From: an uncultured Gammaproteobacteria bacterium
Lineage (GTDB): Bacteria > Pseudomonadota > Gammaproteobacteria > Arenicellales > JAANXG01
Length of the DNA: 64,000 bases
Reading direction: 5' to 3'
Assembly: GCA_947259175.1 (NCBI GenBank)
Contig: CAMYKW010000009.1
Span: forward strand, 1-64,000
Part shown: in pieces, positions 39,862 through 57,743 of the stretch
Layout: every line of letters starts with the position of its first letter
Numbering within the stretch: the stretch's first letter is position 1
Notes under the pieces: model-generated
What the model saw: the letters and a program-made list of their open reading frames with translations, nothing else
What the model was told of the DNA's origin: nothing
The model's database searches: none
Position numbers and translations under genes: made by a program

Positions 39862-41211
39862 TCAGTGGTCGCTTGGTGTGTCGGCATTCACTGAGAAAAT
39901 GGTGGTGTCGGCTTGCCTCCCGCGCACTTTAACGGCGCCGATTCTTGTAAACGAGAAGCGATCGGCGCCGGCGAGTTGACACGTAGTTTCCGATACCAAT
40001 ATCCGCGTTCCGTACTGCTTATTGAGTTGTTCCAAACGCGCCGCCAGGTTTACGTCATCACCTAAGACTGTGTAACTCAATCGATCGCTGGTGCCTACCA
40101 ATCCGCCTACGACAATACCGGTGTTCACGCCGATACGGGAGCGAAAACTTATACCGTCACCGAAAGTACGGCGGCCCAGGACGCTTTGAATGGCTATCGC
40201 GGCTCGCACTGCGTTGGCGGCATGGTCCGGATCGGCCTTGGGCAGGTTGAAGCTGGCCAGGATGGCATCGCCCTGAAATTGATTTATTACGCCGCCAAAC
40301 TGCTCGATGGGTTCGGCGACAGCAGTGCAAAAGTCATTAAGCGTGTTGATCAATTCCGTCGGTGACATGTTCTCGCAAAGCGTCGTGAAGTTTTCCACAT
40401 CCGCAAACAGCACTGTTGTCTGTCGAACCTCGCCTTCGCCGGCGATCATCTCGTGATCCGATGACTTGAGTTGTTGAGCGATCTCGGTAGGAACAAATCG
40501 CGACAGGTCGCGTGCCACGGTTCCCTCCACAACGGATTGCACCAGCAGGCCGCGGGCGCGATGCAGCGCAATGGCCAGGATCGTGGTTACCATCAGGATG
40601 GAGATCACTTTATCGAACTCGGCGCCCAGCAGCATGCTGTTGGAAGTCATATATTGCACATAGTCCCGCGTGACCATGTCGCCCTGGGCGTCGTACACCA
40701 CTACGTAGAGCATCATCAGCAGCCAACCGGCGGCGGCAACGGCGCCGGCGGTGACGACGAATCCGGCTTCGAATCGAAGCGCCCTTAATGAAATGAATAT
40801 GAACACATACAACAAGGTGGGTGCCTTGAGGTAGAACGATGGCGGCTGACCGTATTGGATGTGAAAAGTCCAGATCAACCCGAACAGCAAAGCGATGTCG
40901 ACCACTACCGAGACATAGAGCAGCCAGTCCGGCAGTCTACGACGGTGCGCCAACGCCAGCCTGACCACGGTGAACAAAAGGTACGCGCTCAAAACCCACG
41001 GTACCGGTGCAAACTCCGCCTCCTCGCCGAAGGTCTTGGGGGCCAAGGTGTACAACGCGGCAAAAACCGTGACAACGCCGAGCTGAATCCATCCTATCAG
41101 CACCTCGCTGGAATCCTGCTGCATGCGAATGGCTGCGGCTAAGCGGGGCGGCATTTTCCGGTTTCGCGCGCTGAATGCCGGGAAAAAATGATTGCGAAGT
41201 TTGGCTGACAT
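39862..41211 (-). CDS. Membrane class III adenylate/guanylate cyclase
   Basis: A 449-aa protein with about six hydrophobic helices (residues 35-235), an amphipathic linker and a catalytic domain. D271 (LFADVENF) and D315 (QGDAI) bind metal; N388 and R392 (DDVNLAARLE) stabilise the transition state. Q311 occupies the position where adenylate cyclases carry the purine-selecting lysine (K-x-x-GD), and T381 takes the place of the paired aspartate, so nucleotide specificity is uncertain. A good AGGAAAA precedes the ATG. It faces the HD gene and is divergent from the glycosyltransferases. Confidence 0.9.
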   Translation of the reverse strand: MSAKLRNHFFPAFSARNRKMPPRLAAAIRMQQDSSEVLIGWIQLGVVTVFAALYTLAPKTFGEEAEFAPVPWVLSAYLLFTVVRLALAHRRRLPDWLLYVSVVVDIALLFGLIWTFHIQYGQPPSFYLKAPTLLYVFIFISLRALRFEAGFVVTAGAVAAAGWLLMMLYVVVYDAQGDMVTRDYVQYMTSNSMLLGAEFDKVISILMVTTILAIALHRARGLLVQSVVEGTVARDLSRFVPTEIAQQLKSSDHEMIAGEGEVRQTTVLFADVENFTTLCENMSPTELINTLNDFCTAVAEPIEQFGGVINQFQGDAILASFNLPKADPDHAANAVRAAIAIQSVLGRRTFGDGISFRSRIGVNTGIVVGGLVGTSDRLSYTVLGDDVNLAARLEQLNKQYGTRILVSETTCQLAGADRFSFTRIGAVKVRGRQADTTIFSVNADTPSDH

Positions 41212-41362: not shown

Positions 41363-42595
41363 ATGAGTGAGCGCTTGAACGGAGGTCGGGTACTCATATA
41401 CAGCCACGATACTTTCGGTCTTGGCCACCTTCGCCGATGCCGGGCGATCGCTCATTCGCTGGTTGAAAGATATAAAGGGCTTTCGGTGCTAATTCTGTCC
41501 GGTTCGCCCATCATCGGAAGCTTCGACTATCGGGCGCGCGTTGATTTTGTGCGCATACCCGGCGTCATCAAGCTCCACAACGGCAAATACACTTCGCTGG
41601 GGCTGCATATCGATCTGGAGCAAACCTTGGCTATGCGCTCCTCGATCATCCATCATACCGCTAAGATTTTCGACCCCGATCTGTTCCTGGTCGACAAGGA
41701 GCCCTTGGGGCTTGGTGGAGAGGTTCTGGGAACTTTACAGCTCCTGCAGCAGCGGGACACCGTGACCGTGCTTGGTCTGCGGGATGTCATGGATGAGCCG
41801 GTCTTGCTGCGGCGTGAATGGCAGCGAAAACGCGCACTGCCGGCATTGCAGGATCTTTACAATGAGATATGGGTGTATGGTTTGGAACAACTGGGCGAGC
41901 CGCTGACCGGTCTGAGTGTTCCGCCTTCGGTGCAGGCCAAGATGATCTATACCGGCTACCTGCGTCGAGATTCCCCGAAAGGACGGATGTTGCCGTCGGT
42001 GGAGATGACTGAACCGTATTTATTGGTCACTGCTGGCGGCGGCGGTGACGGTGAGGAAATGATAGACTGGGTGCTGCGTGCGTATGAGCACGACGCCGAT
42101 TTGCCCTTTTCCGCACTGTTGGTTCTGGGTCCTTTCATGTCCCCCGCGCGACAACGGGCATTCCAACTCCGAGCGAATGACTTGCCGAACGTGCAAACCC
42201 TGGAGTTCGATAATCACATCGAGCTGCTCATGGAGAAGGCGATCGGTGTGGTTGCCATGGGTGGTTACAACACCTTTTGCGAGATCCTGAGCCTGAACAA
42301 AAGGGCGTTACTGGTCCCGCGCACGCGGCCAAGAAAAGAACAACTGATTCGCGCACGCCGCGCCCAGCAACTCGGAGTCGCCAAGATGCTCATAGGCAGC
42401 GGGGACCGTGACTGGAGGGTCATGGCCCGGGCGCTTCGCGAACTGCTTAGTCAACCGCTCCCATCGGAAGTGGTGATCCCCGGAATTCTCGATGGTTTGG
42501 CAACCATCGGCGACCGCGTGGAGTGGTGGGTGGCGAATCGGCGCAAACCATCCACTGCATTGCGCTCGAATATGTCCCTGGGTGCGCCGCAGTAG
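41363..42595 (+). CDS. Predicted glycosyltransferase (COG4671-like)
   Basis: A 410-aa GT-B-type protein. The N terminus VLIYSHDTFGLGHLRRCRAIAHSL is typical of COG4671 and related MurG-like enzymes, with the acceptor-side GHLRR loop. The C-terminal half contains VTAGGGGDGEEMID and GGYNTFCEILSLNKRALLVPR, the nucleotide-sugar-binding region. No membrane segment. A GGGGGAG lies before the ATG. A second homologous gene follows within 7 nt, suggesting a tandem pair acting on one glycan. Donor and acceptor are unknown. Confidence 0.85.
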   Translation: MSERLNGGRVLIYSHDTFGLGHLRRCRAIAHSLVERYKGLSVLILSGSPIIGSFDYRARVDFVRIPGVIKLHNGKYTSLGLHIDLEQTLAMRSSIIHHTAKIFDPDLFLVDKEPLGLGGEVLGTLQLLQQRDTVTVLGLRDVMDEPVLLRREWQRKRALPALQDLYNEIWVYGLEQLGEPLTGLSVPPSVQAKMIYTGYLRRDSPKGRMLPSVEMTEPYLLVTAGGGGDGEEMIDWVLRAYEHDADLPFSALLVLGPFMSPARQRAFQLRANDLPNVQTLEFDNHIELLMEKAIGVVAMGGYNTFCEILSLNKRALLVPRTRPRKEQLIRARRAQQLGVAKMLIGSGDRDWRVMARALRELLSQPLPSEVVIPGILDGLATIGDRVEWWVANRRKPSTALRSNMSLGAPQ

Positions 42596-42602
42596 GTCAT
42601 CC

Positions 42603-43763
42603 TTGCCCGGAGTTTCAATCGAGGCAGCAACCTCCGGGGTGCGGGTTCTAATTTATGTGCAGCACTTGTTGGGAACCGGTCACCTGAGACGTAGCGCGCT
42701 GCTGGCGCAGGGGCTTGCAGCGGCCGGTATGCGTGTGGAACTGATATCCGGGGGCTTACCGGCACCCCATCTGCCTCACCCCGTAGTCCAATTGCCGCCG
42801 GTTCGCTGTGCAGCGGGTGATTTCACGCTGCTGCTTGATGAGGCTGGATCGCCCGTTTCGGACGCATGGCGGTCCCGGCGGCGCCGATGTTTGTTGAATC
42901 GTTTCGCCGCGTACCAGCCTCATGCCCTGATCGTCGAGACTTTTCCCTTCGGCCGCAGGCAGATGGATTTCGAACTCGTACCTTTGATAAAAAACGCCGC
43001 CGCCGCGGAACCTCGGCCCGTCGTCGTTTCCTCGGTGCGGGATGTGTTGCAAAAACGACGGCCGCAAAGGGTGATGGAAGCCGCCTCGCTGCTGAATGAA
43101 TATTTCGATAAGGTATTGGTGCATGGTGACCCGTCATTTATCGGATTCGATGAAACGTTTCCCATGGCTGATGACATTCGAGACAAGATCGTCTATACCG
43201 GTTACATCGCCGAAGGTGTGCGCACGGATCAGCCGCAGGGCACCGACGGAGAGAACGAAGTTCTGGTGTCCGCCGGCGGTGGCGCTGTAAGTAAACACCT
43301 GATGTCGACGGCGCTGCAAGCGCGGCGGCTGTCCGCACTGAGTACACATCGCTGGCGTTTTCTGGTTGGACCCGGACTGTCAGCGCGGGATATTCGGGAG
43401 TTGGAGGCGCATGCGGAACGCGACGTGATTGTCGAATCGGTGCGATCAGATTTTGCCGACTTATTGAGGCGTTGCAAGGTCTCGGTGTCCCAGGGAGGTT
43501 ACAACACGGTCGTGGACGTTTTACGCGCCGGCGCGCGCGCGGTGATCGTGCCGTTCTCCAGAGGAGGCGAAACCGAGCAGACGTTCCGCGCCGGACGGCT
43601 GCATGAACGTGGGTACGCGTGGGTCGTCGATGAAGCGGCGCTGACACCAAAATCGTTGGCTGCGGCCATTGATCGCGCGTCGCTCATGAAGTCCGCGGAG
43701 GCTCCCATCGACATGAACGGCGCCGCCAACAGCGCCAGACAGATCGCGGCTGCGCTGGCATGA
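42603..43763 (+). CDS. Second predicted glycosyltransferase, paralogue of the upstream gene
   Basis: A 386-aa GT-B-like protein similar in layout to the gene before it: RVLIYVQHLLGTGHLRRSALLAQGL at the N terminus, VSAGGGAVSKHLMS in the second half and GGYNTVVDVLRAGARAVIVPFSRGGETEQ near the C terminus. Start is uncertain: TTG 42603 with AGGT 5 nt upstream is taken here, but GTG 42639 directly before RVLIY is equally possible. It shares GHLRR and GGYNT with its neighbour, indicating an old duplication. Confidence 0.82.
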   Translation: MPGVSIEAATSGVRVLIYVQHLLGTGHLRRSALLAQGLAAAGMRVELISGGLPAPHLPHPVVQLPPVRCAAGDFTLLLDEAGSPVSDAWRSRRRRCLLNRFAAYQPHALIVETFPFGRRQMDFELVPLIKNAAAAEPRPVVVSSVRDVLQKRRPQRVMEAASLLNEYFDKVLVHGDPSFIGFDETFPMADDIRDKIVYTGYIAEGVRTDQPQGTDGENEVLVSAGGGAVSKHLMSTALQARRLSALSTHRWRFLVGPGLSARDIRELEAHAERDVIVESVRSDFADLLRRCKVSVSQGGYNTVVDVLRAGARAVIVPFSRGGETEQTFRAGRLHERGYAWVVDEAALTPKSLAAAIDRASLMKSAEAPIDMNGAANSARQIAAALA

Positions 43764-43782: not shown

Positions 43783-44547
43783 ATGATGACGCATTGGGCG
43801 GAATTCGTCGCCGAGCTGGATGCGTGGCGGGCTGCGGGCCGCACCGCGACGTTCTGGTGGCGGGACGATGACGCGATCAACAACGACCCGGCGATAGACC
43901 GTTTGCTGACCCTGCGGCGCAGGTTGGGCGTGCCTCTCGCGGTTGCCGCGATCCCGGCGTCTACGGACACATTGTTCGCCAATGCGGTGTTGGCCGACAC
44001 CGAAGTATGGGTGTTGCAACACGGCTATGCCCACCACAACCATGCGCCTGCCGGCGAGAAGAAAAGTGAATTTACACACGGCCGGGCCAGGAGCGCGGTA
44101 TGCGAGGATCTGAATGCAGGCGCACAACTGCTGCGAGATTTGTTCGGAGCGCGCCTGCTGTCGGTGTTGGTGCCGCCGTGGAACCGTATTCATGAAGGCT
44201 GGATCCGGGAGTTGTCCAGCCTCGGCTATCGCGGCCTGTCGCTCTACAAGCCGCGGTCTGCGCGCTATGCCGCGCCGGGGCTGTGTCTGGTGAACACCCA
44301 TGTAGATATCGTCGATTGGCGGGGACGACGCGGCTATGTCGGGCTGGATAGCGCACTGGGGCAGGTGGTCGCGCATCTTAAGCAGCGGCGGCATGGCGAT
44401 GTGGATGCCGACGAACCCACCGGTCTATTGACGCATCATCTCGTTCACGACGAGCAATGCTGGACTTTTGTTGAGGAATTCGTCGCGCGATCCGGCGCCC
44501 ATCCGGCAGTGGGCTGGTTAAACGCGGCGAACCTTTTTACGCCTTGA
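43783..44547 (+). CDS. Polysaccharide-deacetylase-like protein
   Basis: A 254-aa protein related to NodB-type carbohydrate esterases. FWWRDDDAINNDPA supplies the acidic metal-binding motif, LQHGYAHHNHAP the His-rich motif and PPWNRIHEGWI a motif-3-like segment. The acidic motif is RDDD rather than TFDDG, so activity may differ. No signal peptide, so a cytoplasmic substrate such as a lipid-linked sugar is plausible. It follows the glycosyltransferase pair by 19 nt. Confidence 0.78.
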   Translation: MMTHWAEFVAELDAWRAAGRTATFWWRDDDAINNDPAIDRLLTLRRRLGVPLAVAAIPASTDTLFANAVLADTEVWVLQHGYAHHNHAPAGEKKSEFTHGRARSAVCEDLNAGAQLLRDLFGARLLSVLVPPWNRIHEGWIRELSSLGYRGLSLYKPRSARYAAPGLCLVNTHVDIVDWRGRRGYVGLDSALGQVVAHLKQRRHGDVDADEPTGLLTHHLVHDEQCWTFVEEFVARSGAHPAVGWLNAANLFTP

Positions 44548-44568: not shown

Positions 44569-45240
44569 TCACCGGTAACCGATCAACATGAAGCGAGTGT
44601 ATTTCTTCAGTCGCAATGATGCTGCGAACAGGAGTTGGCTCATCGGTGCCTGACGCTGAAATGCTTGGAGATCCGGAACGCAGTTAGAGTGTTCTTCACA
44701 AGCGTAATAGTCATTCGACTGTAGCACCTGTAGCACTCCCGAGGGCACCTTTGCGTACCATTCCTCGAAGCGGTCGAGGTGTTCGCAGGAGGTGTTTATG
44801 AGCACGTCGGGTATGGACCCGGGACCATTGCCGGCCGCCATCCGCTCATAGTCCAGTTGGTAAATATCGGCGGTAATCGCGTGGAATTTACCGTGCTCGA
44901 TCTGGGTGCGGTTGAGACTCTCCGCGATCGGTTTGCAGTGTTCATCCCGGTCGACACATACCACACACTCGATATCGAAACGTTCGTCGTGCAGCAACAT
45001 TGCCGCCAGAACGCCGTACCAACTGCCCAGGATGTGAATGTTGCGAAAACGTCCGCCGGCCACGCGGTGTAGTTCGTTTACCAGCCACTGCTTTCCGGAG
45101 ATTTGGTTTTTGTTCAACGCCGCTCCGAGATCCGGCGCGGGGAAACGGGATGCCGTGGCCAGAATGTCAGCGATGAACGGACTGGCATAATAGCTCGCAA
45201 GACCTTCCAGGATATCGCGATAGTACTCGTCCTTATCCAA
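44569..45240 (-). CDS. SAM-methyltransferase-like protein
   Basis: A 223-aa protein with a Rossmann-like core: IHILGSWYGVLAAML resembles motif I, CVVCVDRDEHCKP motif II, and DVLINTSCEHLDRFEEWY a motif IV/V-like stretch. The start is TTG at 45240 with a very strong GAGGAGGG 7 nt upstream, overlapping the 3' end of the preceding glycosyltransferase by 8 nt. Family assignment is tentative; the substrate is unknown. It lies in the glycan cluster and is convergent with the deacetylase-like gene. Confidence 0.65.
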   Translation of the reverse strand: MDKDEYYRDILEGLASYYASPFIADILATASRFPAPDLGAALNKNQISGKQWLVNELHRVAGGRFRNIHILGSWYGVLAAMLLHDERFDIECVVCVDRDEHCKPIAESLNRTQIEHGKFHAITADIYQLDYERMAAGNGPGSIPDVLINTSCEHLDRFEEWYAKVPSGVLQVLQSNDYYACEEHSNCVPDLQAFQRQAPMSQLLFAASLRLKKYTRFMLIGYR

Positions 45241-46417
45241 GGGACTGCCCTCCTCGTACCGGCGCGCGATGACGCACGGCCGACCGGCGCGCGATGATCT
45301 CGTCCACGAGTTGCTTTAGTGTATTGCGTGCGGCGGCAATATCGTGCAGTGCCTGTGCCTTACAGCGAGCCTGTCGACCCATGTGTCGACGGCGATCGGG
45401 GTGTTTGATTAACGATCGTACTGCGGTGCTGATTGCGCCGGCGTTTTGCTCCACCAACAGACCGGTTTGCCCATGTTCAACGATGTCCGATACGCCGCCG
45501 CAACGACCGGCTACTACCGGTATTCCCCAGGCGTGCGCCTCGAGCAACGCCATGCCAAAGGCTTCGCCGATCGCCGGCCACACCATGAGATCGCAGACCG
45601 AAAGCCATTGCTCTATGGCGTCGGCGCCGAGTTCGCCCAGAAAGCGCACCCGTTCTTCAGGCAGGGTCGCGAATGCCTCCAGCACCCGGTCACGCGCCGG
45701 CCCGTCGCCTATAACAATCAGTGTCCACCGCTGGTCTTGGAGTATTTCGAGCGCCTTGGCCAGCAATTGAAATGACGCCAACTTACTGACTTCCCGCATC
45801 ATGGCGACTGTGATCAGCCAGGGTTGGTCGCGGGGAATGGCGTGTCGCGTCGCCAGCTGCGTGCGCAGGCCGGCGGTTGTCGACGCAGTGGCTACTCGCG
45901 GCAGGTCTATGAATGGCCGCATCAACACCACGCCCTGGTCCCGCAGCCGGCTGATACCTGGCAGGTCATCTGAATTCAGCACGATCACGGCATCCGCCTT
46001 GATTATCGCGTCAGTGGCGGCTGCGTAGCCCACCGACCATCGCCCGCGCGCTTGTTTTGCAGCATGGGATGCCTCGACGACCAGGTAGGGTATGTCCAGG
46101 GCCGAGGCGACCGCGGGACCGATCCAGTCCGGGGCTTTGTGGTACAGGTGGTAGGTCACCCACAGATCGGGGCGCTGCGCGGGCGCGCTGGTCCGCCATA
46201 GATTAATCAGTTTGCATGCGTGATGCTTGCCGATACGTTCTAATCGTTGCTGGCGCCGCGCGTCGCCCGCGGCATCCCAGCTGCGGAATCGGGAAGCCAG
46301 AAGCACGTGATGCGGGTCGGCATCCAAGGCGCGCCAGAACAAACGAGCGACTCTCCGGTCGCCGGATGGCTCTGGATCGTCGGGTGGCTTCATGGGTGCA
46401 TAATACGCTATTTTCAT
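45233..46417 (-). CDS. GT4-family glycosyltransferase
   Basis: A 394-aa retaining GT-B enzyme. The C-terminal half has VIGDGPARDRVLEAF and the E-x7-E donor site in GEAFGMALLEAHAWGIPVVAGRCGG, the GT4 hallmark. No membrane segment. It overlaps its upstream neighbour by 4 nt (ATGA) and its downstream neighbour by 8 nt, so the three minus-strand genes are co-translated. Sugar donor is not determinable. Confidence 0.88.
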   Translation of the reverse strand: MKIAYYAPMKPPDDPEPSGDRRVARLFWRALDADPHHVLLASRFRSWDAAGDARRQQRLERIGKHHACKLINLWRTSAPAQRPDLWVTYHLYHKAPDWIGPAVASALDIPYLVVEASHAAKQARGRWSVGYAAATDAIIKADAVIVLNSDDLPGISRLRDQGVVLMRPFIDLPRVATASTTAGLRTQLATRHAIPRDQPWLITVAMMREVSKLASFQLLAKALEILQDQRWTLIVIGDGPARDRVLEAFATLPEERVRFLGELGADAIEQWLSVCDLMVWPAIGEAFGMALLEAHAWGIPVVAGRCGGVSDIVEHGQTGLLVEQNAGAISTAVRSLIKHPDRRRHMGRQARCKAQALHDIAAARNTLKQLVDEIIARRSAVRHRAPVRGGQSLG

Positions 46418-47673
46418 GCTTCGCTTACCGGTTGCACGCCGAACTTGGCGGCGATGCCGTCGATATGGGCGTCGAGCGAGAATTTCTCCCGCACCCTGGT
46501 GTTGCCCATTTCGCCCAAACGTGAGCGAAGATCGGGATCGACGATCAGCCGATCCAACGCTGATGTCAAGGCCGCGACGTCGCGTTGCGGAACGATGAGC
46601 CCGTGCTCATTGTCGTTGATGAGCTCGGGTATGCCGGAGATGCCGGTCGAAATTACCGCCACGGATTGACTCAACGCCTCCAGTAGCACGTTGGGCAGCC
46701 CATCCCGGTCGCCGTCGCTGCTGACGCGGCAGGCGAGCGCAAATATGTCCGCGTGTCGATACCATTTCAATACGTCCTGTTGCGGCAAGGCGCCGAGCCA
46801 TCTGATACGTGACGCGATTCCCAGCTGTTGGGCAAGCTGTTTGAGTGCCGCCAAGCGATCACCATCGCCGATATGGACGAACCGCCATTGGCGGCGTGGT
46901 GGTAACTGGCGCAACGCCTGCAATAAGTCATCGTAGCCCTTCTTGTCCACAGCCCGGCCCACCGACAGAATTATCACCGGGTCGCCGGAATGGCGGCCGT
47001 CCCGTGGTCTTCGCGCCTGGGTCGGCGGCGGAAAACGTCGCACATCCAAGCCGTGGTAATTCAGCATCACCTTGGCGGGGTCATCCGCGATGTCGCGTAG
47101 ATGCGTGGCATTCGCTTGCGTACAAGTGGTTATCCATGCGCACTCGGCGAGCTTCTGGCGTTTTTCCCACGCCGGCGTGGTCCAGATGTCCTTCGCGTGG
47201 GCCGAGCAACTCCAGGGCACTCCCATTATGGCGCTCGCGTAACGAACCACCGAAGCCGGCGTATGCAGAAAGTGCGCGTGCAGATGGCTTACTCTCCCGA
47301 TGAGTTCACTGCCCAACACCATCGCCTGACCAAAGCGCCGGATGCGATTCGCGGTTCGATCGCGTCCTAGGTCATTACGCCACATACTGCGGGCGGCCAT
47401 GTAGTCAGGAAAACGGCGCACTCTGATCCAGGCGTGAATGAGCCGCAGGGGCTCCTGATACAAATATTCGGGCAGGTATAACACCGGCGCCTTAATCTCT
47501 TCGTGTATCGGATGAATTGAGCCATCGGTGGGATGCCGCAAAGACACAATCATGATATCCAATCCACGCCGCTCCAGGGCGAGAATTTCCTGGGCGATGA
47601 ACGACTCTGACAGTCGTGGGTATCCTTTTAAGACGAAGGCTATGGTGTCCGCCCCTGAGACCGTTGACATCAT
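46414..47673 (-). CDS. GT4-family glycosyltransferase
   Basis: A 419-aa GT-B protein. The N-terminal IAFVLKGYPRLSESFIAQEILALE is typical of colanic-acid- and exopolysaccharide-type GT4 enzymes. HIGDGDRLAALKQLAQQLG and the donor-site segment RDGLPNVLLEALSQSVAVIST are in the C-terminal half. It overlaps the formyltransferase gene by 4 nt upstream and the second GT4 by 4 nt downstream. Confidence 0.9.
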   Translation of the reverse strand: MMSTVSGADTIAFVLKGYPRLSESFIAQEILALERRGLDIMIVSLRHPTDGSIHPIHEEIKAPVLYLPEYLYQEPLRLIHAWIRVRRFPDYMAARSMWRNDLGRDRTANRIRRFGQAMVLGSELIGRVSHLHAHFLHTPASVVRYASAIMGVPWSCSAHAKDIWTTPAWEKRQKLAECAWITTCTQANATHLRDIADDPAKVMLNYHGLDVRRFPPPTQARRPRDGRHSGDPVIILSVGRAVDKKGYDDLLQALRQLPPRRQWRFVHIGDGDRLAALKQLAQQLGIASRIRWLGALPQQDVLKWYRHADIFALACRVSSDGDRDGLPNVLLEALSQSVAVISTGISGIPELINDNEHGLIVPQRDVAALTSALDRLIVDPDLRSRLGEMGNTRVREKFSLDAHIDGIAAKFGVQPVSEA

Positions 47674-48380
47674 AGTCGCGAGGTGAATTTCTCAAATCGT
47701 TTGATACATAGCTCTTTCAGAACACTTGGCATGAAAGAGTAGTAGCGGCCGACCGTTTGCAGCGGTCGGGACTCTAGCGCGTGGTCGTGTTGAAGGCTGG
47801 CCAATATTCGGCGTGATAGCTCTACCGCCGCCTCGGTGCCGGCTGCGCGCAATTGAAACAGCCGCATTCCGGGCTTGAGGATTACGTTTTCCATTCCCAG
47901 CATATCGCCGCGATCGAGTTCCGTGGCCAGGCGCTGCATCGCAACCGACAACGCTTCGAAATCGCGATGGTAGATCGCCCATAGGTGAGCATCGAGCCCG
48001 CGGTACTGCTCCGGGTTTCCGGTGTGAATGTTAAACGCGGCGGAAGGGCAAACATCAATCACCGACTTGTTGAGTTTGCGCGTTCCGAACACCAGCATGG
48101 CCTCCGGTCGGGCGGCGGTCATAGCGGATATCGCTTCCGGTTGGCTCAACGAGGGAAAGAACTCGGTGTCGGCGACGTCTTTGAAAGGCGGCGATCTTCC
48201 GTTGAACCAAACGCGCTTCTCGTGGTTCTTGCTCTGTTCCTCGAACGGGTGAAACGTGTCAAAGGGCGGTGTCAACTCACCGGTCTCGACAAATACGCGG
48301 GTCACCGGCATCGACCTGCTGAGCGCGTGGACAAAGTAACGTCGGCGTACTGATCCGGTTGTTAGAATAATCAATCTCAT
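47670..48380 (-). CDS. Formyltransferase-family protein
   Basis: A 236-aa protein with the core of the formyltransferase superfamily: AAFNIHTGNPEQYRGLDAHLWAIYHRD carries the Asn-x-His-x-Gly catalytic segment and a Tyr-Arg-Gly that precedes the acceptor region. It may transfer a formyl group to an amino sugar, as in some polysaccharide clusters, but the donor folate-binding N terminus is only loosely similar. It is the first gene of the minus-strand cluster, and its start is in a 115-nt gap divergent from the ABC gene. Confidence 0.75.
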   Translation of the reverse strand: MRLIILTTGSVRRRYFVHALSRSMPVTRVFVETGELTPPFDTFHPFEEQSKNHEKRVWFNGRSPPFKDVADTEFFPSLSQPEAISAMTAARPEAMLVFGTRKLNKSVIDVCPSAAFNIHTGNPEQYRGLDAHLWAIYHRDFEALSVAMQRLATELDRGDMLGMENVILKPGMRLFQLRAAGTEAAVELSRRILASLQHDHALESRPLQTVGRYYSFMPSVLKELCIKRFEKFTSRL

Positions 48381-48495: not shown

Positions 48496-51138
48496 ATGGA
48501 ACCGTCCATTTATCGTTACGTTCTGAAGCATACGCTCAAGGATCAGATTTTCTTGATTGTTCTGACCGCCGCTTCTTTGCCGCTTGTTTACATCACCCTC
48601 GAGGTTCCCAAACGCATTATCAACGAAGCCATAGGCGGTCAGGGCGCGCCTTATTCGATATTGGGTTTTGAACTCGATCAAATCGGATACCTGTTGGTAT
48701 TGTGTTTCTTTTATCTGGGCCTGGTTATTCTAAACGGGGGTTTCAAATACGTTAATAATGTCTACCGGGGAGTCGTTGGCGAGCGGATGTTGCGCCGGTT
48801 TCGCTACGAACTATTCAACCGCATATTACGTTTCCCCTTACCGCACTTCAAACGCACTTCTCAGGGTGAGTTAATCCCGATGATCGTCGCCGAAACCGAA
48901 CCCTTGGGTGGGTTTATCGGCGAGGCGTTTGCGCTTCCGGCATTTCAGGGCGGCATCCTGCTCACCTATCTGTCGTTTATTTTTGTGCAGGACGTGTTCC
49001 TGGGAATCGCCTCAATCATGATGTACCCGTTGCAGATGTACGTCATTCCGAAGCTTCAGCGTAAGGTAAACAACCTCAACAAGCAAAGAGTCAAGAAAGT
49101 ACGAACGTTTTCCGATCGCATCGGCGAAACCGTCTCTGGCATTACCGAGATTCATGCCCACAACACCTCCCGATTCGCTCGCGCCGTGGTTGGATCGATA
49201 CTGGGCGCCGTTTTCCATATTCGTTACGAAGTCTACCGGCGTAAGTTTTTCATTAAGTTTCTGAACAATTTCCTGGATAAACTGACGCCGTTTTTCTTTT
49301 ATTCCGTGGGTGGTTATCTGGTGATAACCGGAAAGCTGTCTCTTGGGGCGCTGGTTGCCGCGCTGGCGGCGTATAAGGACATCTCGGACCCATGGAAGAC
49401 TTTGCTCAAATATTACCAGACCAAGGAAGACATACGGGTAAAGTACGCGCAGATCATCGAGCAGTTTCAACCTGAAAACATGATGACGCGCGAATTGTTG
49501 GACACAGAACCCGAACAGATCCCGCCGCTGAGGGGCAACATCAGCACGACCAATTTGAGTTATACGGAGGACGGAGCGACCAAGCCCGTCGATGGAGTCA
49601 GCTTAACGGTAAGTGAGAATACCCATGTCATCAGCGTGGGGCCGGGTAACAGTGGAAAAGACGAGTTGGCCATGTTGTTGGCGCGGTTGGTCCAACCCGC
49701 AGGCGGGCGAATGGTCATCGATGATCTCAATCTGGCCGAGTTGCCGGAGGCGGTGCTGGGAAGGCGCATGGCCTACGTTGGGCAAAATGCTTATGTGTTT
49801 GCGGGAACCATACGCGACAACCTTTTCTACGGCCTCAAGCATCGTCCGATAATTGATCCTGATTATGACGATGAACAACAGCGAGCGCGGGCGGATGAAC
49901 TCAAGGCGGCGATCGCCGCAGACAACAGTCGCGATGACGTGCTCGCGGATTGGATCGACTACCAGGCCGTCGGAGTCGTCAGTCCCGAGGAGCTCGAACA
50001 GAAGGCGTTTGAACTCGCGGAACTCCTGGATATGGAACACGATCTTTATCAGTTGGGATTACGCGGCAAGATAGATCCGGGCGCCTATCCTGAGCTTTGT
50101 GATCGAATTCTGGCGGCACGGGACAAATTGCGTCTTCGCTTGCGGCAACCGGAAGTAGCGGATTTGGTGCAATCCTTTGACCGCAATCTGTATAACAGCA
50201 ACATGTCCGTCGCCGAGAACCTGTTGTTCGGTTCGGCCCTGGACCCGGCGTTTGCCCTGGAGAATCTGGCGACCAATGCGGATGTGCGTCGGATTCTGGA
50301 TGACGCGGGTCTCACGGATGACATGGTAGACATCGGCAAGCATGTGGCGGAGACCATGGTTGAATTGTTCGCCGATGTGGACCCGGATAGCGAACTGTTC
50401 GAGAAGTACAGCTTTATCAGCGCCGACGACTTACCCGGTTTTACCAAGCTGCTGTCGCGCGCCGAGGAGCTGGGTATACCGGGCTTGGACGAGGATGAAC
50501 GTGTGCGTCTGTTTTCCTTGACCTTTAAGCTGGTGCCCTCGCAACACCGCTTGGGCCTGATTGATGAGCAGATGCAGTCTCGCCTCGTCGAGGCGCGCCG
50601 CGAACTGGCTGAGCGCTTGACGGCCATGGAAACGTCTGTCGCCGGATTCGATGCGGATCATTTCAATGCGGCGCTGTCGCTTCAAGACAACATCTTGTTT
50701 GGCAGGCTGAACCCAGGGCAGGCGCGGGCGCAAACCCGGATCGGCGAGCTGCTCGCCGAAACCGTTGACGAGCTGAACCTGCACCAGGCGATCACCAAGG
50801 TTGGTCTCGACTATGAAGTCGGGATCGGCGGCTCCCGGCTCAGCCTGGCGCTGCGCCAGAAACTGGCGATCGGACGTTGCTTACTCAAAAATCCGGATGT
50901 TTTCATTGTCAACCAGGCCACCGGTGCGCTCGATCCGGGCGCCGAACTCAACATCGTGAGGAAATTGACCGAGTATAGAAAGGGTAAGTCTTTGATCTGG
51001 ATATCCGATCGTGCGGAATTGGCGCGACATTTTGACCGCGTGATCGTGATGGACAATGGGAAAATTGGCGAACAGGGCACATTCGACGAGTTGTCGAGCC
51101 AAGGCAAGCTGTTTCCGCGGCTGTTGGGGTCCGTGTGA
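48496..51138 (+). CDS. ABC-exporter-like protein with a degenerate, insertion-bearing NBD
   Basis: An 880-aa protein laid out like a type IV half-exporter: about six TM helices (residues 15-330), then an NBD. The Q-loop (Q430) and the GALDPG D-loop are kept. Walker A is GPGNSGKD (382-389), with Asp in place of the Ser/Thr; the signature is LSLAL (782-786), not LSGGQ; Walker B ends N806-Q807, not Asp-Glu; and the switch histidine is D838. About 290 extra residues lie between the Q-loop and the signature and contain two more copies of a xNLxFG motif (570-579 and 727-736) besides 437-446. ATP hydrolysis is unlikely. Other cases may exist in the family; none were checked. Confidence 0.85.
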   Translation: MEPSIYRYVLKHTLKDQIFLIVLTAASLPLVYITLEVPKRIINEAIGGQGAPYSILGFELDQIGYLLVLCFFYLGLVILNGGFKYVNNVYRGVVGERMLRRFRYELFNRILRFPLPHFKRTSQGELIPMIVAETEPLGGFIGEAFALPAFQGGILLTYLSFIFVQDVFLGIASIMMYPLQMYVIPKLQRKVNNLNKQRVKKVRTFSDRIGETVSGITEIHAHNTSRFARAVVGSILGAVFHIRYEVYRRKFFIKFLNNFLDKLTPFFFYSVGGYLVITGKLSLGALVAALAAYKDISDPWKTLLKYYQTKEDIRVKYAQIIEQFQPENMMTRELLDTEPEQIPPLRGNISTTNLSYTEDGATKPVDGVSLTVSENTHVISVGPGNSGKDELAMLLARLVQPAGGRMVIDDLNLAELPEAVLGRRMAYVGQNAYVFAGTIRDNLFYGLKHRPIIDPDYDDEQQRARADELKAAIAADNSRDDVLADWIDYQAVGVVSPEELEQKAFELAELLDMEHDLYQLGLRGKIDPGAYPELCDRILAARDKLRLRLRQPEVADLVQSFDRNLYNSNMSVAENLLFGSALDPAFALENLATNADVRRILDDAGLTDDMVDIGKHVAETMVELFADVDPDSELFEKYSFISADDLPGFTKLLSRAEELGIPGLDEDERVRLFSLTFKLVPSQHRLGLIDEQMQSRLVEARRELAERLTAMETSVAGFDADHFNAALSLQDNILFGRLNPGQARAQTRIGELLAETVDELNLHQAITKVGLDYEVGIGGSRLSLALRQKLAIGRCLLKNPDVFIVNQATGALDPGAELNIVRKLTEYRKGKSLIWISDRAELARHFDRVIVMDNGKIGEQGTFDELSSQGKLFPRLLGSV

Positions 51139-51191: not shown

Positions 51192-51749
51192 ATGTGGGTT
51201 AGAGATAGACAGCGGGATTCGGACGATAGCCGCCGCATGGTCGTCGAAACCAGCCTGTTGGATCGCATGATTGAACGGCTAGTGACCCAACGCGCCTGCC
51301 TGGAGCGGGCAGTGAAGCTCATCGCGAGCCTGCCGGGACCGGTAATCGAACTCGGCCTGGGGAAGGCGCGCACTTACGATCATCTACGCCGGTTGGTTCC
51401 AAATCGCCGCATCCTGGTGTTCGACCGGGAGATCCACGCGCCCGAAGCCTATGTTCCTGACGGTCAAGACCTGTATCTCGGTGATTTTCGCGACACTTTG
51501 CGTGAAGTGCAGGAACGCCTGCGGGGTACGGTGGTGCTGCTGCATGCGGATATCGGATCCACTGACCGCGACCGAGACCGGCGACTAATCGCCGAACTGA
51601 TCCCGTTGATCGAAGCCCTGGTGTGTGATTCGGGTATCGTAGTAAGCGACCGCGAGATGCCGCAACCCCACTGGGAGAGCCTCGCCCTGCCGTCATCCGC
51701 GGGCGATTGGCGCTACTACATGTATCGAGTCAGGAAGGCGGGGAAATAA
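51192..51749 (+). CDS. Small class I SAM methyltransferase (Methyltransf_17-like)
   Basis: A 185-aa SAM-dependent methyltransferase-like protein. GPVIELGLGKARTYDHLRRLVPNRRILVFDRE covers motifs I and II of the Rossmann fold and is close to the PF12692 pattern as I remember it; VLLHADIGSTDRDRD and CDSGIVVSDREMP follow. It starts 54 nt after the ABC-like gene; ATG 51237 is an alternative start. Its substrate is unknown. The adjoining ABC-like gene suggests they act together. Confidence 0.78.
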   Translation: MWVRDRQRDSDDSRRMVVETSLLDRMIERLVTQRACLERAVKLIASLPGPVIELGLGKARTYDHLRRLVPNRRILVFDREIHAPEAYVPDGQDLYLGDFRDTLREVQERLRGTVVLLHADIGSTDRDRDRRLIAELIPLIEALVCDSGIVVSDREMPQPHWESLALPSSAGDWRYYMYRVRKAGK

Positions 51750-51757
51750 CCACCCCG

Positions 51758-52936
51758 CTACTTATACGGATCGGCCGCGTCCCGTAATCCGTCGCCAAAG
51801 AAGTTGAACGCCAGGATTACGACTATTACCGGCACCACCGGTAGCATCAGCCACGGATAGAGGGCGACGACGTTAATGTTTTGCGCCTCGTTGAGCAGCA
51901 CTCCCCAGCTGGTGATCGGTGGACGCAGGCCTAACCCCAGGAAACTGAGCGCCGTCTCTCCGAGTATCATCGACGGAATAGAAAGTGTCGCGGAAGCGAT
52001 CAGGTGACTGAGAAAACCGGGCAACAGGTGACGGCCGATGACTCGTCGCGGGCGGGCGCCCATGAGTTGCGCCGCAGTACAATAATCCTCTTCCCGCAAC
52101 GCCAGTAGTTTCGAGCGAACCGCGCGCGCAAGACCGGTCCAGTCGAGTAATGCGAGGATGACGGTAATCCCGAAAAACACCAGGATCGGACTCCAGTTGA
52201 CCGGCAGGATTGCGGACAAGGCCATCCACAGCGGCAGCTCCGGGAACGATCGAATGATCTCGATCAGGCGTTGAATGACATTATCCACCCAGCCGCCGTA
52301 GTAGCCGGCGAGCCCGCCGATGATGATGCCCAATGCAAAACTGATCGTGATCCCCAGAAGGCCAATAGTCAATGAGATGCGTGCGCCATAGATGATGCGG
52401 GAAAGCATGTCGCGCCCGAGACGGTCGGTGCCCAGCAGAAACAAAGTGCCGTCCCGGGCCGGGCATACGAGATGAAAATTTGCCTCGAACAAGTCCCAGA
52501 ACATGTATCCATCTCCGTCGCAGAAAAATCTCAGCCGCTGCACGTTCTGCTTGTCTTCGCTGTATTCGCGTCGCAGGTTGGTCATGTTGAGTCGATACTC
52601 GAGCCCGTACACAAATGGGCCAATGAACTGGCCTTCGTTAAACCAGTGCACAGACTGTGGCGGTGCGTAGATGAAGTCAGTGTGCCGAGATTGCAGGTTG
52701 TAGGGGGTGACGACTTCGGCAAACAGCGCCGCGACGTAGAACATCAGGAGCACGGCGCCGGAAAACACCGCCAACCGATGGCGCTTGAGTTTCCACCACA
52801 TCAACTGCCATTGGGAGGCGAGATAATAACGCTCCTGTTCGGGCGCCAACGCCTCGATGGAGTAAGGATCGAAGGGCGCCTTGGATACGAAATGTTCCGT
52901 GCCGGATGTGTCGATGTCGTTTGACGGCGATGTCAT
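51758..52936 (-). CDS. ABC peptide importer permease (YejE-like)
   Basis: A 392-aa permease of the oligopeptide/dipeptide importer family. It has a soluble N terminus with YLASQWQLMWWKLKRHRLAV before the first helix, a large periplasmic loop, five further helices and the EAA-loop region ARAVRSKLLALREEDYCTAAQLMG. The length is greater than the usual 300 aa because of the N-terminal and loop regions, as in YejE. Its start overlaps the YejB-like gene by 4 nt. Confidence 0.9.
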   Translation of the reverse strand: MTSPSNDIDTSGTEHFVSKAPFDPYSIEALAPEQERYYLASQWQLMWWKLKRHRLAVFSGAVLLMFYVAALFAEVVTPYNLQSRHTDFIYAPPQSVHWFNEGQFIGPFVYGLEYRLNMTNLRREYSEDKQNVQRLRFFCDGDGYMFWDLFEANFHLVCPARDGTLFLLGTDRLGRDMLSRIIYGARISLTIGLLGITISFALGIIIGGLAGYYGGWVDNVIQRLIEIIRSFPELPLWMALSAILPVNWSPILVFFGITVILALLDWTGLARAVRSKLLALREEDYCTAAQLMGARPRRVIGRHLLPGFLSHLIASATLSIPSMILGETALSFLGLGLRPPITSWGVLLNEAQNINVVALYPWLMLPVVPVIVVILAFNFFGDGLRDAADPYK

Positions 52937-53931
52937 CGGGTGGTGCCCCCTTGCAGCCGGATGCGGGGATCCAGCGCGGCGAGGGCAAGATCCGAAAGCA
53001 GTACGCCAATGACGGTGAGCGAAGCGAGAAACATCAGAAACGAGCCGGCAAGATACATGTCTTGGCTCTGCAACGCGCTCAGCATCATCGGCCCGGTCGT
53101 CGGCAGGGATAACACCACTGCCACCACCTCGGCGCCGGAGATGACGCTGGGCAGGATGCTGCCAATATCCGATATGAAAAAATTCAGCGCCATGCGCAAA
53201 GGATATTTTGTGAGTAGCCTGAAGTGAGGCAATCCTTTTGCAAGCCCGGTGACCACATACTGTTTCTGCAGTTCATCGAGCAGGTTGGCGCGCAACCGGC
53301 GGATCATTCCCGCCGTCCCGGAGGTGCCGATGACCAACACCGGTATCCATAGGTGTTCCAGCACCGACATGAACTTGTCCCAGCTCCACGGCTGATCTAT
53401 ATATTCCGGATCCATCAATCCCCCGATGGAGGTGCCGAAGTACACGTTGGCCAAATAGAGCATAACCAGGGCAAGCAGAAAGTTGGGTGTAGCCAGGCCG
53501 ATAAAGCCAAGAAAGGTCAGACCGTAGTCTCCCCAACTGTACTGGTGGGTAGCGGAATAAATCCCGATCGGAAAGGCGATAATCCAGGTAAATACGATGG
53601 TGATAAACGAAACCAGCACGGTAAGCACCAAGCGGTCGCCGACGACCTCGGTTACCGGCAGGTCGTACTCAAATGAATATCCAAAATCTCCCCGGAACAT
53701 TCCCGTCAACCAGTGGAAATACTGCTCATGTAACGGTTTATCCAATCCATAGTGTTGGCGCAGAAATGCAATTTTTTCCGGATCGACGGATTCGCCCTGA
53801 CTCTGCAGTTCAGCGATATAGCTTTCCAGATAATCGCCGGGCGGCAGCTGAATAATGACGAATACGATAAGGCTGATGATCAACAGGGTTGGGATCATCA
53901 TTAACAGGCGATGTAATATGTAACGCAGCAT
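52933..53931 (-). CDS. ABC peptide importer permease (YejB-like)
   Basis: A 332-aa permease with six hydrophobic segments and the EAA-loop sequence LRANLLDELQKQYVVTGLAKG. The start MLRYILHRLLMMIPTLLIIS is typical of DppB/OppB-like proteins. It is coupled by overlaps or short gaps to the solute-binding protein (15 nt) upstream and the second permease downstream (4-nt overlap). Confidence 0.92.
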   Translation of the reverse strand: MLRYILHRLLMMIPTLLIISLIVFVIIQLPPGDYLESYIAELQSQGESVDPEKIAFLRQHYGLDKPLHEQYFHWLTGMFRGDFGYSFEYDLPVTEVVGDRLVLTVLVSFITIVFTWIIAFPIGIYSATHQYSWGDYGLTFLGFIGLATPNFLLALVMLYLANVYFGTSIGGLMDPEYIDQPWSWDKFMSVLEHLWIPVLVIGTSGTAGMIRRLRANLLDELQKQYVVTGLAKGLPHFRLLTKYPLRMALNFFISDIGSILPSVISGAEVVAVVLSLPTTGPMMLSALQSQDMYLAGSFLMFLASLTVIGVLLSDLALAALDPRIRLQGGTTR

Positions 53932-53946
53932 TGTTCTTTTTAGATG

Positions 53947-55860
53947 CTACTCGTCGGCAAACCAGAACGTGTCGGGCCGGTAAATCCCGAAGTAGGACCC
54001 CGGCTCCCAGTTGTATATCCCTTCCTCGGGTACATTCCGGAGGCGATTGTTGATCACTACCGGTTGCGGCACGCCACACACGGTCCCGATGGTGAACTGC
54101 TGTTCAGCGTGTGTCTCCAACATGGTCAGCCAGATACGCTCTCGTTCCTCACGTGTTTCGGCAAATCGCCATTGGTTGTTGAGTTTCGCTAGCTGGTCAA
54201 CACTGTCCATGGTGGGTGATTGGCCGCTCCGGCCACGGGTTTCGAAATACTGCCCCCATTTGGGCCATTGAAGTTGTTGCTGTGTGGTCGGCGCCAGTTC
54301 TTTCGGACTCATGTCCGCAGTGGCGATGCCGTTCGAGAGTCCTGCCCATACCGTCATGATTGTGTCGCCGGCGAACGTTCTGTTGCGGAATACCTCGCGT
54401 TGCGAAGGGCGTGTATAAAGTTTGATGCCGGCCTGCAACCAGCTATCATGGATCAGCTCCAGTACGTCGGTTTCCTCGGTGCTTTCGCCGGCCGTCTGGA
54501 CAATAATTTCGATCGGCCGTCCGTCCGGCAGCACGCGTATTCCGCGGTTGTCGTACTGGGTTAAACCGATCTCGTCGAGCAACTGGTTTGCCCGGGGTAA
54601 GTCGAAATCCGTCCAGGTTTTCTGGAACTCGGGGCGGAACAGCGGGCTCTGCGGCAGCACTGTATTGTTGCTCTCGAGCACCAGGCCGAAATAGATGACC
54701 TGGTTGATCTCATGGCGATGAATAGCGAGTGACAGGGCGCGTCGAAAGCGGACGTCATGCAGTAGTTCGCGCCATACCTCATCGTTGGTGTTCAGATTGG
54801 GGAACAGGGCCATCTGGGAGCCCTTTGCGGTGCGCCACAGGCGCACCGAGAAATTGTTGCGCTGCTCACCCGCCTTGAGGAAGGTGTAATTGTCCAGGCG
54901 CAGATAACGCGCCTGCAGATCCGATTCTCCGGCCCCGGTCTTGGCCGGCACCAGGCTGCTGCTGGCGATGTTGACAATTACACGGTCGATATACGGAAGC
55001 TGTTTGCCATCGCTGTCGATGCGGTGGTAATAAGGATTGCGCTTGAATATGAATCGTTCTGAAGGCGGCCGCGTGGTATTCGCCCATGGCTGAAGGGTCG
55101 GCAGATCCGGGTTGTCGAACTTGTACATACGGGCCGAGCGGTGATGGAGGCCCGCCCAATTGCGGGTGCCGGCCTGCGCCACGTTGCGCGCGAGATCAGC
55201 TGTGTCGGTGTACCCGGCATGAAATCGCTTCAGGTAGTGAGCCGGGAGATATATAAACAGCGGCCGGGGTCCGGCGAGCGCCGGCAGAAAAAAGGGGTTG
55301 GGCTTGTGCCAGCTGTAACGAATCGTGGTTTTATTGATGATCTCAACTTGCGGCGGCTTTCCTTCGATCATCAAAGCCTGGGTCGGACCGAACGGCGATA
55401 GGTCTTTGTTATTGGCGACATCCTCCCAATAGTATCGAAAATCCTCGGCAGTAAACGGATGGCCGTCGGACCATCGATGACCGGGGCGCAGATAGAACGT
55501 AAACACCCGGTTGCCCTCGACCTCGTAGCGTTCCAGCAGGTCGGCAAAAAGCTCGAATCGGGTATCGTAAGCAACCAGCCGAGCGTAGCCGTATACGACC
55601 ATCATACGAATATCTCGGGCTTTACCCATCAGCAGGCGTAGTTCGCCGCCGTAACGTCCGGGGGTGTTTTCCGTCCCCTGGTAAGTGACGATCGCCGGTT
55701 GTGCGGGCACCCGCTGCCGGATCGGCGGCAGTTGACCGCCGCGTACCGCGTCCATCAATACCGGAACTTCGGCGAGTTCGGGAGTTTGCGCAATCGCCGG
55801 AAGACCGGATATCCCCGCCGCTACGACCAACAACAACCTCCAGACTCTATAAGTGCTCAT
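53947..55860 (-). CDS. Family 5 extracellular solute-binding protein
   Basis: A 637-aa exported binding protein. A signal peptide of about 25 residues ends SGLPAIAQ. The mature part has the layout of peptide/nickel-type binding proteins, with FTFYLRPGHRWSDGHPFTAEDFRYYWEDV and RRALSLAIHRHEINQVIY near the middle. There is no Cys after the cleavage site, so it is probably a soluble periplasmic protein, not a lipoprotein. It overlaps the ATPase gene by 4 nt. Ligand is inferred as peptides from the family and operon. Confidence 0.92.
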   Translation of the reverse strand: MSTYRVWRLLLVVAAGISGLPAIAQTPELAEVPVLMDAVRGGQLPPIRQRVPAQPAIVTYQGTENTPGRYGGELRLLMGKARDIRMMVVYGYARLVAYDTRFELFADLLERYEVEGNRVFTFYLRPGHRWSDGHPFTAEDFRYYWEDVANNKDLSPFGPTQALMIEGKPPQVEIINKTTIRYSWHKPNPFFLPALAGPRPLFIYLPAHYLKRFHAGYTDTADLARNVAQAGTRNWAGLHHRSARMYKFDNPDLPTLQPWANTTRPPSERFIFKRNPYYHRIDSDGKQLPYIDRVIVNIASSSLVPAKTGAGESDLQARYLRLDNYTFLKAGEQRNNFSVRLWRTAKGSQMALFPNLNTNDEVWRELLHDVRFRRALSLAIHRHEINQVIYFGLVLESNNTVLPQSPLFRPEFQKTWTDFDLPRANQLLDEIGLTQYDNRGIRVLPDGRPIEIIVQTAGESTEETDVLELIHDSWLQAGIKLYTRPSQREVFRNRTFAGDTIMTVWAGLSNGIATADMSPKELAPTTQQQLQWPKWGQYFETRGRSGQSPTMDSVDQLAKLNNQWRFAETREERERIWLTMLETHAEQQFTIGTVCGVPQPVVINNRLRNVPEEGIYNWEPGSYFGIYRPDTFWFADE

Positions 55861-57743
55861 GTGGTCAGCTCATGTTGTCGAGTGCCGACCGCGGCCCTTA
55901 CCTGATGTCCGTGATTTACCTGCACCAGTTCGGTTTGCGTATCGTCATTGACGGTGAACGGTGACGGCCATGCGGCAGGGTCGGAAGCCCGCCCTTCCAT
56001 CAACGCCGCCAAATCCAAACGCCGGTTCAGGTCCGGATAAGGCACCGCGGCAAGCAGCGCCCGTGTGTAAGGATGGACCGGATTCCGAAACAAAATTTCC
56101 CGGGGCGCAATTTCAACCAACCGTGCGTTGCACATCACTGCGATGCGGTCGGAGACATAATCCACCACAGCCAGATTGTGAGATACAAACAAGTAGGTCA
56201 ATCCGAGCTCCGCTTGCAGCTCTTTCAGAAGATTCAGGATCTGCGCTTGTATCGAGACATCGAGGGCCGAGACAGGTTCATCGCAAATCAGCAGGTCGGG
56301 TCGCAAGGCGAGTGCGCGTGCAATCCCGATGCGTTGCCGTTGCCCGCCGGAAAAACTATGCGGATAGCGGTTCAGAAACCGGGGATCCAGCCCCACCAGG
56401 CGTAACAACTCCTTGACCATTTCCGACTGGTACGCCTGATCGCCGAGTCGATGGATGATCAACGGTTCGCGGATGATATCGAACACGGTCATGCGCGGGT
56501 TCAAGGAGCTGAACGGGTCCTGGAAAATCAGTTGCATCCTGCGGCGGGCCACCAGGCCCTCTTCGCCCGCCAAGGCCAACACGTCGGTCAGTGTGCCGCG
56601 GTCGTTGTAGACGATGCTCCCGGTGTCCGGTCGGATAGCCCGCATGATGATTTTACTGAGTGTGGTCTTGCCGCATCCGCTTTCGCCCACCAGACCGAGG
56701 CATTCACCTCTTTTGATATCAAAACTGACGTCGCTCACGGCGGTGATGACTTCTTCGTCCTTGTGTCCCAACCATCCGCCTTTGCGAATGCGAAAAGTCT
56801 TGCTCAGGTTTTGCACCGAAAGATGAGCCCCGGCTTCTTCCGCCCCGCTGGGCCACGGTTTTATATCGCTGAGCAGCGGCCCGGTTTCATGCTCGACCTC
56901 CCGCACCGGCTGCAGTCGTTCGCCGGCTTTCATGTCGAAGTGGGGGACCGCCTTGAGCAGAGCCTGTAGATACGGATGACCGGGACGATTAAAAATGTCA
57001 CTCGCAGTGCCGCGTTCCATTACCTCACCGTGATATACAACCACGACATGTTCGGCGACGTTGGCGACGACACCCAGGTCATGCGTGATGATCAATACCG
57101 CCATCCCAAGTTCGGACTGGAGATCCTTGATCAAGCTCAGGATTTGCGCCTGGATCGTGACATCCAACGCGGTGGTCGGCTCGTCGGCGATCAATAGCGC
57201 CGGGCGACAGACCAACGCCATGGCAATCATTACCCGTTGCCGCAAACCGCCCGAAAGTTCGAACGGATAGGTGTTCATCGCTTGCGCGGGATTGGGAAAT
57301 CCCACGAGTCGCAACATATCCTGGGTCAGCGCCAGTCCTTCCTGTCTATCCATATCACGATGTAGAAACAAGGCCTCGCTGACCTGATCTCCGACGGTGT
57401 GCAGCGGCGATAGTGAAACCATCGGTTCCTGAAAGATGATCGAGATGCGCCCGCCCCGGATGGCTCGCATCGCGGCGCTCTTGCGGGGTAATTTTGCAAT
57501 ATCGACAACGTTGCCGGTGCGGGGTTCGGTGAACAGAATTTCTCCGGCGCTGATATGGCCGATATCCGGAAGTATCCCCATGATGGATTGTGCGATTACG
57601 GATTTCCCGGAGCCCGATTCCCCCACCAGGGCCACCGTGGCGCCGGGCGCGACTCCGAAAGAGACGCCACGCACGGCATGAACCACGGAGTGATGCACGC
57701 CAAACTCGACTTCCAGATTCCGAATACTCAGCAGATCCGGCAT
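55857..57743 (-). CDS. ABC importer ATPase with two nucleotide-binding domains (YejF-like)
   Basis: A 628-aa fused double ATPase. NBD1 (about residues 1-270) has Walker [13 protein letters not shown] and signature [12 protein letters not shown]2 (about 310-570) has [13 protein letters not shown] and [10 protein letters not shown] with CDEPVSALD. Both halves look catalytically intact. This YejF/GsiA-type fusion powers peptide or glutathione import. It is the first gene of the operon, in the order ATPase, binding protein, permease, permease, which differs from the E. coli yejA-B-E-F order. Confidence 0.93.

Follow-up and report, generated by a model that had tools for sequence, protein, structure and literature searches.

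We describe a family of ABC exporter-like proteins from the Pseudomonadota in which, as a comparison of 69 distinct relatives shows, the predicted ATPase site is dismantled family-wide; the nucleotide-binding domain (NBD) has been kept and is enlarged by an insert of ~300 residues that contains two extra Q-loop-like segments. The gene neighbourhoods show that the family is genetically tied to cyclic-nucleotide-binding (cNMP) domains, either fused or encoded next door, and to glycosyltransferase (GT) genes. The family has apparently been undescribed until now: no ATPase-dead exporter family of this kind was found in the open-licence literature, subscription papers lying outside that search, and long-conserved, fully dismantled ABC motors have been very little described. 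The member studied here is encoded in the window, the stretch of 64,000 nucleotides that was analysed, which forms part of a 4.18-Mb genome. The features of the window are compiled in Table 1.

Table 1. Features of the window, with positions counted from its first nucleotide
Feature	Position	Strand	Basis or remark
Stand-alone cyclic-nucleotide-binding protein, 154 aa	38647..39111	+	cNMP_binding E 2e-19; phosphate-binding GEMGVLNNAPRSA
213-aa protein beside the cNMP gene, HD-phosphohydrolase-like by eye	39204-39845		no Pfam match
Membrane class III adenylate/guanylate cyclase	39862..41211	-	PF00211 E 5.7e-28; FADVENF, GDA and NLAAR motifs
Two GT28-type glycosyltransferase-like genes (41363-42595 and 42492-43763)	41363..43763	+	conserved cluster c2
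254-aa protein, polysaccharide-deacetylase-like by eye	43783..44547	+	no Pfam match; conserved neighbour
Two GT4-type glycosyltransferases (45233-46417 and 46414-47673)	45233..47673	-	Glycos_transf_1; conserved cluster c1
Formyltransferase-like protein, divergent from the exporter gene	47670..48380	-	PF00551 E 1.6e-6
Pseudo-ABC exporter gene, 880 aa, ATG start, open frame	48496..51138	+	ABC_membrane and split ABC_tran; relatives
Transmembrane domain (TMD), residues 1-330, best-conserved part of the family	48496..49485	+	PF00664 at residues 54-290; pairwise identity
NBD, N-terminal part, residues 345-448, to Q-loop and TIRDNLFYG	49528..49839	+	ABC_tran from residue 366; alignment
Degenerate Walker A GPGNSGKD, residues 382-389	49639..49662	+	
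Insertion of ~300 aa, residues 449-742, from Q-loop to signature	49840..50721	+	mostly helical in the model
Q-loop-like segment, second copy, FDRNLYNSNMSVAENLLFG	50161..50250	+	hhalign and column-shuffle control
Q-loop-like segment, third copy, FDADHFNAALSLQDNILFG	50641..50721	+	hhalign and column-shuffle control
NBD, C-terminal part, residues 743-880: LSLAL, N806/Q807, D-loop, D838	50722..51135	+	
Methyltransf_17 protein directly 3' of the exporter	51192..51749	+	Pfam E 5.4e-42
Oligopeptide/Yej-type importer operon	51758..57743	-	rhizobial records: oligopeptide ABC transporter

The window protein has the architecture of an ABC exporter, an ABC_membrane TMD (Pfam E 1.8e-19) fused to an NBD of ABC_tran fold, which Pfam matched partially (E 1.7e-11) and Foldseek recognized. 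Its best NCBIfam match is MsbA (TIGR02203), with 195.4 bits, which is under the curated cut-off of 602 bits. Re-reading of the sequence found each substitution at the residue given in the preliminary description. In Walker A, D389 takes the place of Ser/Thr; the signature region reads RLSLALRQK, with LSLAL (782-786) instead of LSGGQ; Walker B is VFIVNQAT, in which N806 and Q807 replace the Asp and the catalytic Glu; and D838 occupies the position of the switch His in WISDRAE. Q430 of the Q-loop and the D-loop ALD (811-813) remain, as had been noted, and so do the Walker A lysine and the A-loop Tyr356. The protein does not carry the full ATPase motif set (GxxGxGK[ST], Asp-Glu, LSGGQ, and switch His). 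Judged from these domain assignments, descent and fold make it a type IV ABC exporter half, whereas the motif definition would not include it.

Relatives of the same architecture were present in 31 of the 60 closest genomes and, in searches for which the insert alone also served as family probe, in 6 of 369 genomes of a class sample and in 31 of 398 genomes of a phylum sample. Another 328 plasmid or chromid records match, mostly from Rhizobium and Sinorhizobium, some of them by the TMD only; laboratory rhizobia such as Rhizobium etli and Sinorhizobium meliloti carry family members. The homologue comparison that the preliminary description had proposed gave a uniform result for the 69 distinct relatives, which come from across the Pseudomonadota: none possesses a complete set of ATPase motifs. 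A complete Walker A was found in six and LSGGQ in none, the switch His is present in two, the Walker B Asp is kept in 12, with Asn standing in its place in 47 of 67, and the Walker A lysine survives in 30, more than half of the family having lost it. The members at loci L034/L035 and L063/L067/L068 retain the Walker A Ser and the Asp-Glu pair without the signature or the His, so that residual ATP binding or hydrolysis is possible in those members. Losses of the same kind occur in relatives of the same genus (81-84% identity) and in distant ones, and the motif loss is therefore no sequencing error; intact motifs in homologues, which would have exposed a local error, were not found. The label "ABC transporter ATP-binding protein" that such genes bear in the records is probably misleading.

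Heavy motif loss might also mark a decaying pseudogene or an assembly error, an explanation that we regard as highly improbable and have rejected in view of the family-wide pattern in 69 sequences and the purifying selection on the gene. Reading frames are open in nearly all relatives, complete Rhizobium plasmid records agree in showing the same degenerate state, and the dN/dS ratio (omega) against the nearest relative is about 0.06 overall. By region, omega amounts to 0.017 for the TMD, 0.12 for the N-terminal NBD part, 0.10 for the insert, and 0.06 for the C-terminal NBD part, values that are rough, since synonymous sites are near saturation. As estimated in this way, selection is purifying in every region. 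The preliminary description was thus right to regard the open 880-codon frame as a maintained protein, and equally in placing its losses well beyond single-site degeneracy, with several motifs gone here and in the homologues. A second family member in the same genome (contig C88, L009:4004-6508, minus strand, 835 aa, 33-35% identical) is more degenerate still, with GADYREGQ at Walker A and ACH at Walker B. We also considered a covariation of Asp or Glu at position 389 with Asn at position 806 (Fisher p 0.0003), which was unsupported once relatedness was allowed for and is therefore not claimed.

Three points had escaped the preliminary description, namely, the insert of ~300 residues with a tripled Q-loop segment, an inversion of the usual conservation pattern, and the link to cyclic nucleotides. 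The NBD of the family is split by ~300 residues between Q-loop and signature that are absent from ordinary exporters. In a profile-profile comparison with hhalign, the sequence surrounding the Q-loop (..YVGQNAYVFAGTIRDNLFYG) was found two more times within this insert (..FDRNLYNSNMSVAENLLFG and ..FDADHFNAALSLQDNILFG). Copies 2 and 3 match each other over 75 columns (E 3.7e-21), and copy 1 matches copy 2 (E 9e-6) and copy 3 (E 2.5e-6) over about 27 columns each; all 60 column-shuffled controls scored below every one of these repeat matches. The window protein thus has the two extra xNLLFG segments that, together with the insert, define the family. Structure was predicted from an alignment of only 11 sequences. 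In the full-length AlphaFold model, the TMD was unusable (pLDDT 25-45) and the model of the NBD alone was used, which was of fair quality (mean pLDDT 75.8, pTM 0.70) and matched the ComA NBD in Foldseek with a target TM-score of 0.84. On the strength of this model and match, the core of the ABC fold on either side of the insert appears intact, and the NBD fold appears to have been retained despite the motif loss.

The preliminary description called the transmembrane region normal, which holds for its family (ABC_membrane) but not for its conservation, which is unusually high. Mean pairwise identity in the family is 0.63 for the TMD and 0.37-0.42 for the NBD parts. We compared TMD and NBD identity for the family and for MsbA in the same 14 genome pairs. 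TMD identity in the family exceeded that of the NBD by 0.14-0.29 (e.g., 0.72 vs 0.52), whereas in the MsbA control the NBD was better conserved in 10 of the 14 pairs and the TMD led by 0.01-0.07 in the remaining four. The TMD therefore seems, from this conservation, to be the functional core of the protein. Residues E125, E133, R198, and R203 of the coupling loops are invariant or nearly so, and the TMD thus probably still docks on the pseudo-NBD. A precedent for an exporter fold that works ATP-free is the type IV protein SbmA, from which the NBD and coupling helices are absent (PMC13316013). The family shares the exporter-fold TMD of the proton-driven SbmA/BacA group (SLiPTs) and may work similarly, without an ATPase. 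It differs in keeping both NBD and coupling loops, the window protein included, and a glutamate ladder like that of SLiPTs was not seen among the conserved TMD residues, as far as the unreliable TMD model allows their placement. The only ladder candidates are the conserved K250, K254, N257, N258, and D295 of the TM5/TM6 region; the conserved acids appear to lie mostly in loops (E96, E125, E133, E135, and E211), with D295 near TM6.

A rather unlikely alternative, in our estimation, is that other residues at the site still bind ATP and that the protein either cycles without the normal hydrolysis step or hydrolyzes slowly. Some residual ATP binding is conceivable because the Walker A lysine, the D-loop, and the A-loop tyrosine remain in the window protein, and the same lysine is found in the 30 relatives mentioned above. 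There is also a precedent in ABCB1, which continues to transport after four residues of one site have been changed to the ABCB11 type, ATP being released from that site unhydrolyzed (PMC7544095). However, D389 and N806 stand in for the Mg2+-coordinating Ser/Thr and Asp, Q807 stands in for the catalytic Glu, and the signature glycines and switch His are replaced at the same time; the lysine itself is missing from more than half of the family.

A need for an active partner ATPase, as the preliminary description had considered, found no genomic support. Known partner halves of exporters are generally encoded by linked genes or joined in one chain. A search with the MsbA profile revealed no conserved adjacent exporter-type ABC partner in 43 neighbourhoods; matches near the exporter covered NBD positions only (e.g., importer ATPases), apart from one partial match including the TMD (L124). 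The intact partner half encoded alongside, by which an asymmetric exporter is recognized, was accordingly not found in these 43 loci, a test of linked genes only. The pseudo-exporter could still pair, as the degenerate member of an asymmetric pump, with an intact half-exporter that is encoded elsewhere, and several intact exporters do occur at other loci of the same genome. Many exporters have one degenerate site, for example, ABCB11 with its NBS1 (PMC7544095), and TAP, TM287/288, CydDC, CFTR, and SUR resemble the family in having lost the catalytic Glu, signature, or other residues in a still-conserved NBD. In those systems there is a second functional site, whereas the family has no evident partner. 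Known degenerate halves contribute half of a working site, whereas the window protein has lost Walker as well as signature elements, and the paralog on C88 is degenerate as well. We consider this heterodimer unlikely.

The neighbourhoods of the same 43 loci, many of which end at contig ends and some of which come from close relatives, were compared for recurrent genes. A number of conclusions can be drawn. (i) GT4 genes occur in 30 loci, GT28-type genes in 24, and both in 22, and the preliminary report of an adjoining glycan gene cluster thus extends to an association conserved across loci. (ii) In 4 loci the exporter bears a C-terminal cNMP-binding domain; in 12 the next gene downstream, on the same strand, is a cNMP gene, and in 2 the gene directly upstream is one. 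With fusions and all genes of the stretches read counted together, 23 loci have such a domain; the stretches read of the other 20, some of them short, contained none. Given about 10 matches to the window's cNMP protein in its genome, the chance of a given downstream gene on the same strand being cNMP is, by our own estimate, of the order of 0.1%, and the 12 downstream genes are hence far beyond chance, even allowing for relatedness. The tree of the TMD requires three or more changes of fusion state. (iii) Other recurrent neighbours are the Yej-type importer (15/43), a histidine phosphatase (14/43), the deacetylase-like protein (13/43), and a class III cyclase (11/43). In the window, the cNMP gene is ~9.4 kb from the exporter, not adjoining, and encodes the kind of protein that in other genomes is encoded directly 3' of the exporter. 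The window cyclase keeps its catalytic motifs. Annotated rhizobial records show the order adenylate cyclase, oligopeptide importer, GTs, exporter, and cNMP-binding protein.

Known systems share parts of this picture. The family resembles MsbA/PglK-type flippases of lipid-linked saccharides in its PF00664 TMD, coupling loops, NBD fold, and GT linkage, and differs from them in the absence of ATPase motifs, the insert, the higher conservation of TMD than NBD, and a score far under the MsbA cut-off. As in the family, a cNMP-type domain is associated with an ABC exporter in HetC of Nostoc, which needs this domain and also the catalytic Glu, the domain binding ppGpp in vitro (PMC10986499). Unlike the family, HetC has a C39 peptidase, carries its cNMP-type domain at the N terminus, and depends functionally on that Glu.

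The reading that we tentatively prefer, while holding it to be somewhat short of probable, is an exporter-fold membrane protein that works independently of ATPase activity and serves a glycan or glycolipid pathway, its pseudo-NBD being a structural or regulatory platform read by a cNMP partner. Two copies would form a homodimer, in which the pseudo-NBDs, no longer running an ATP cycle, would hold the coupling loops and offer a docking platform for the cNMP-binding protein. Cyclic AMP or another nucleotide from the neighbouring cyclase might then set the open or active state of the TMD, which, to judge from the neighbouring genes, would move or let through a product of the adjacent GTs, either a lipid-linked saccharide or a glycolipid. 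Energy could come from a gradient, as in SbmA, or from mass action rather than from ATP hydrolysis. Less likely, yet worth stating, is a cyclic-nucleotide-gated ABC-fold transporter or channel, in which an exporter-type pore for a glycan or glycolipid of the cell envelope is opened or driven by a second messenger on the fused or partner cNMP domain instead of by ATP hydrolysis; if so, an ABC motor domain would have been converted into a ligand-controlled gating platform. For the question of whether an ABC exporter fold can do without ATP in its energization or gating, the family provides a natural test case.

Alternatively, the protein might be a receptor or scaffold, its TMD binding a membrane-derived glycan or lipid and its NBD, insert, and cNMP module relaying a signal into the cytoplasm. 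The fused cNMP and GGDEF-type domains resemble signalling modules, and cyclases, the HD-like protein, and an MBL-fold hydrolase are recurrent neighbours. Against this, cNMP domains are usually inputs, the GT linkage suggests a transport step, and the fused GGDEF domain has lost its motif (SEAEF) and is thus not an evident output. We doubt this explanation, while retaining it beside the preferred ATPase-independent exporter fold. The GGDEF fusion was observed in a Rhodospirillales locus (L044:6001-9606), where pseudo-exporter, cNMP-binding, and GGDEF-type domains form one chain, the last being its second degenerate enzyme domain.

Several further observations concern the neighbourhoods. The Yej-type importer operon adjoins the pseudo-exporter from window-type metagenome-assembled genomes to Rhizobium. 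On plasmid pA of R. etli CIAT 652 (L128), the neighbours are named redA and redB in the deposited record, an origin for these names was not found in the open-licence literature, and a cyo oxidase operon follows. At L047, where the order is exporter, cNMP, and Fer2/cyclase, the gene directly after the first two (L047:9275-10927) encodes a membrane class III cyclase with a 2Fe-2S (Fer2) domain, whose composition suggests redox-controlled cyclic-nucleotide production. Finally, the pair formed in the window by the cNMP gene and the 213-aa HD-like protein recurs in four other loci (L091, L095, L098, and L099).
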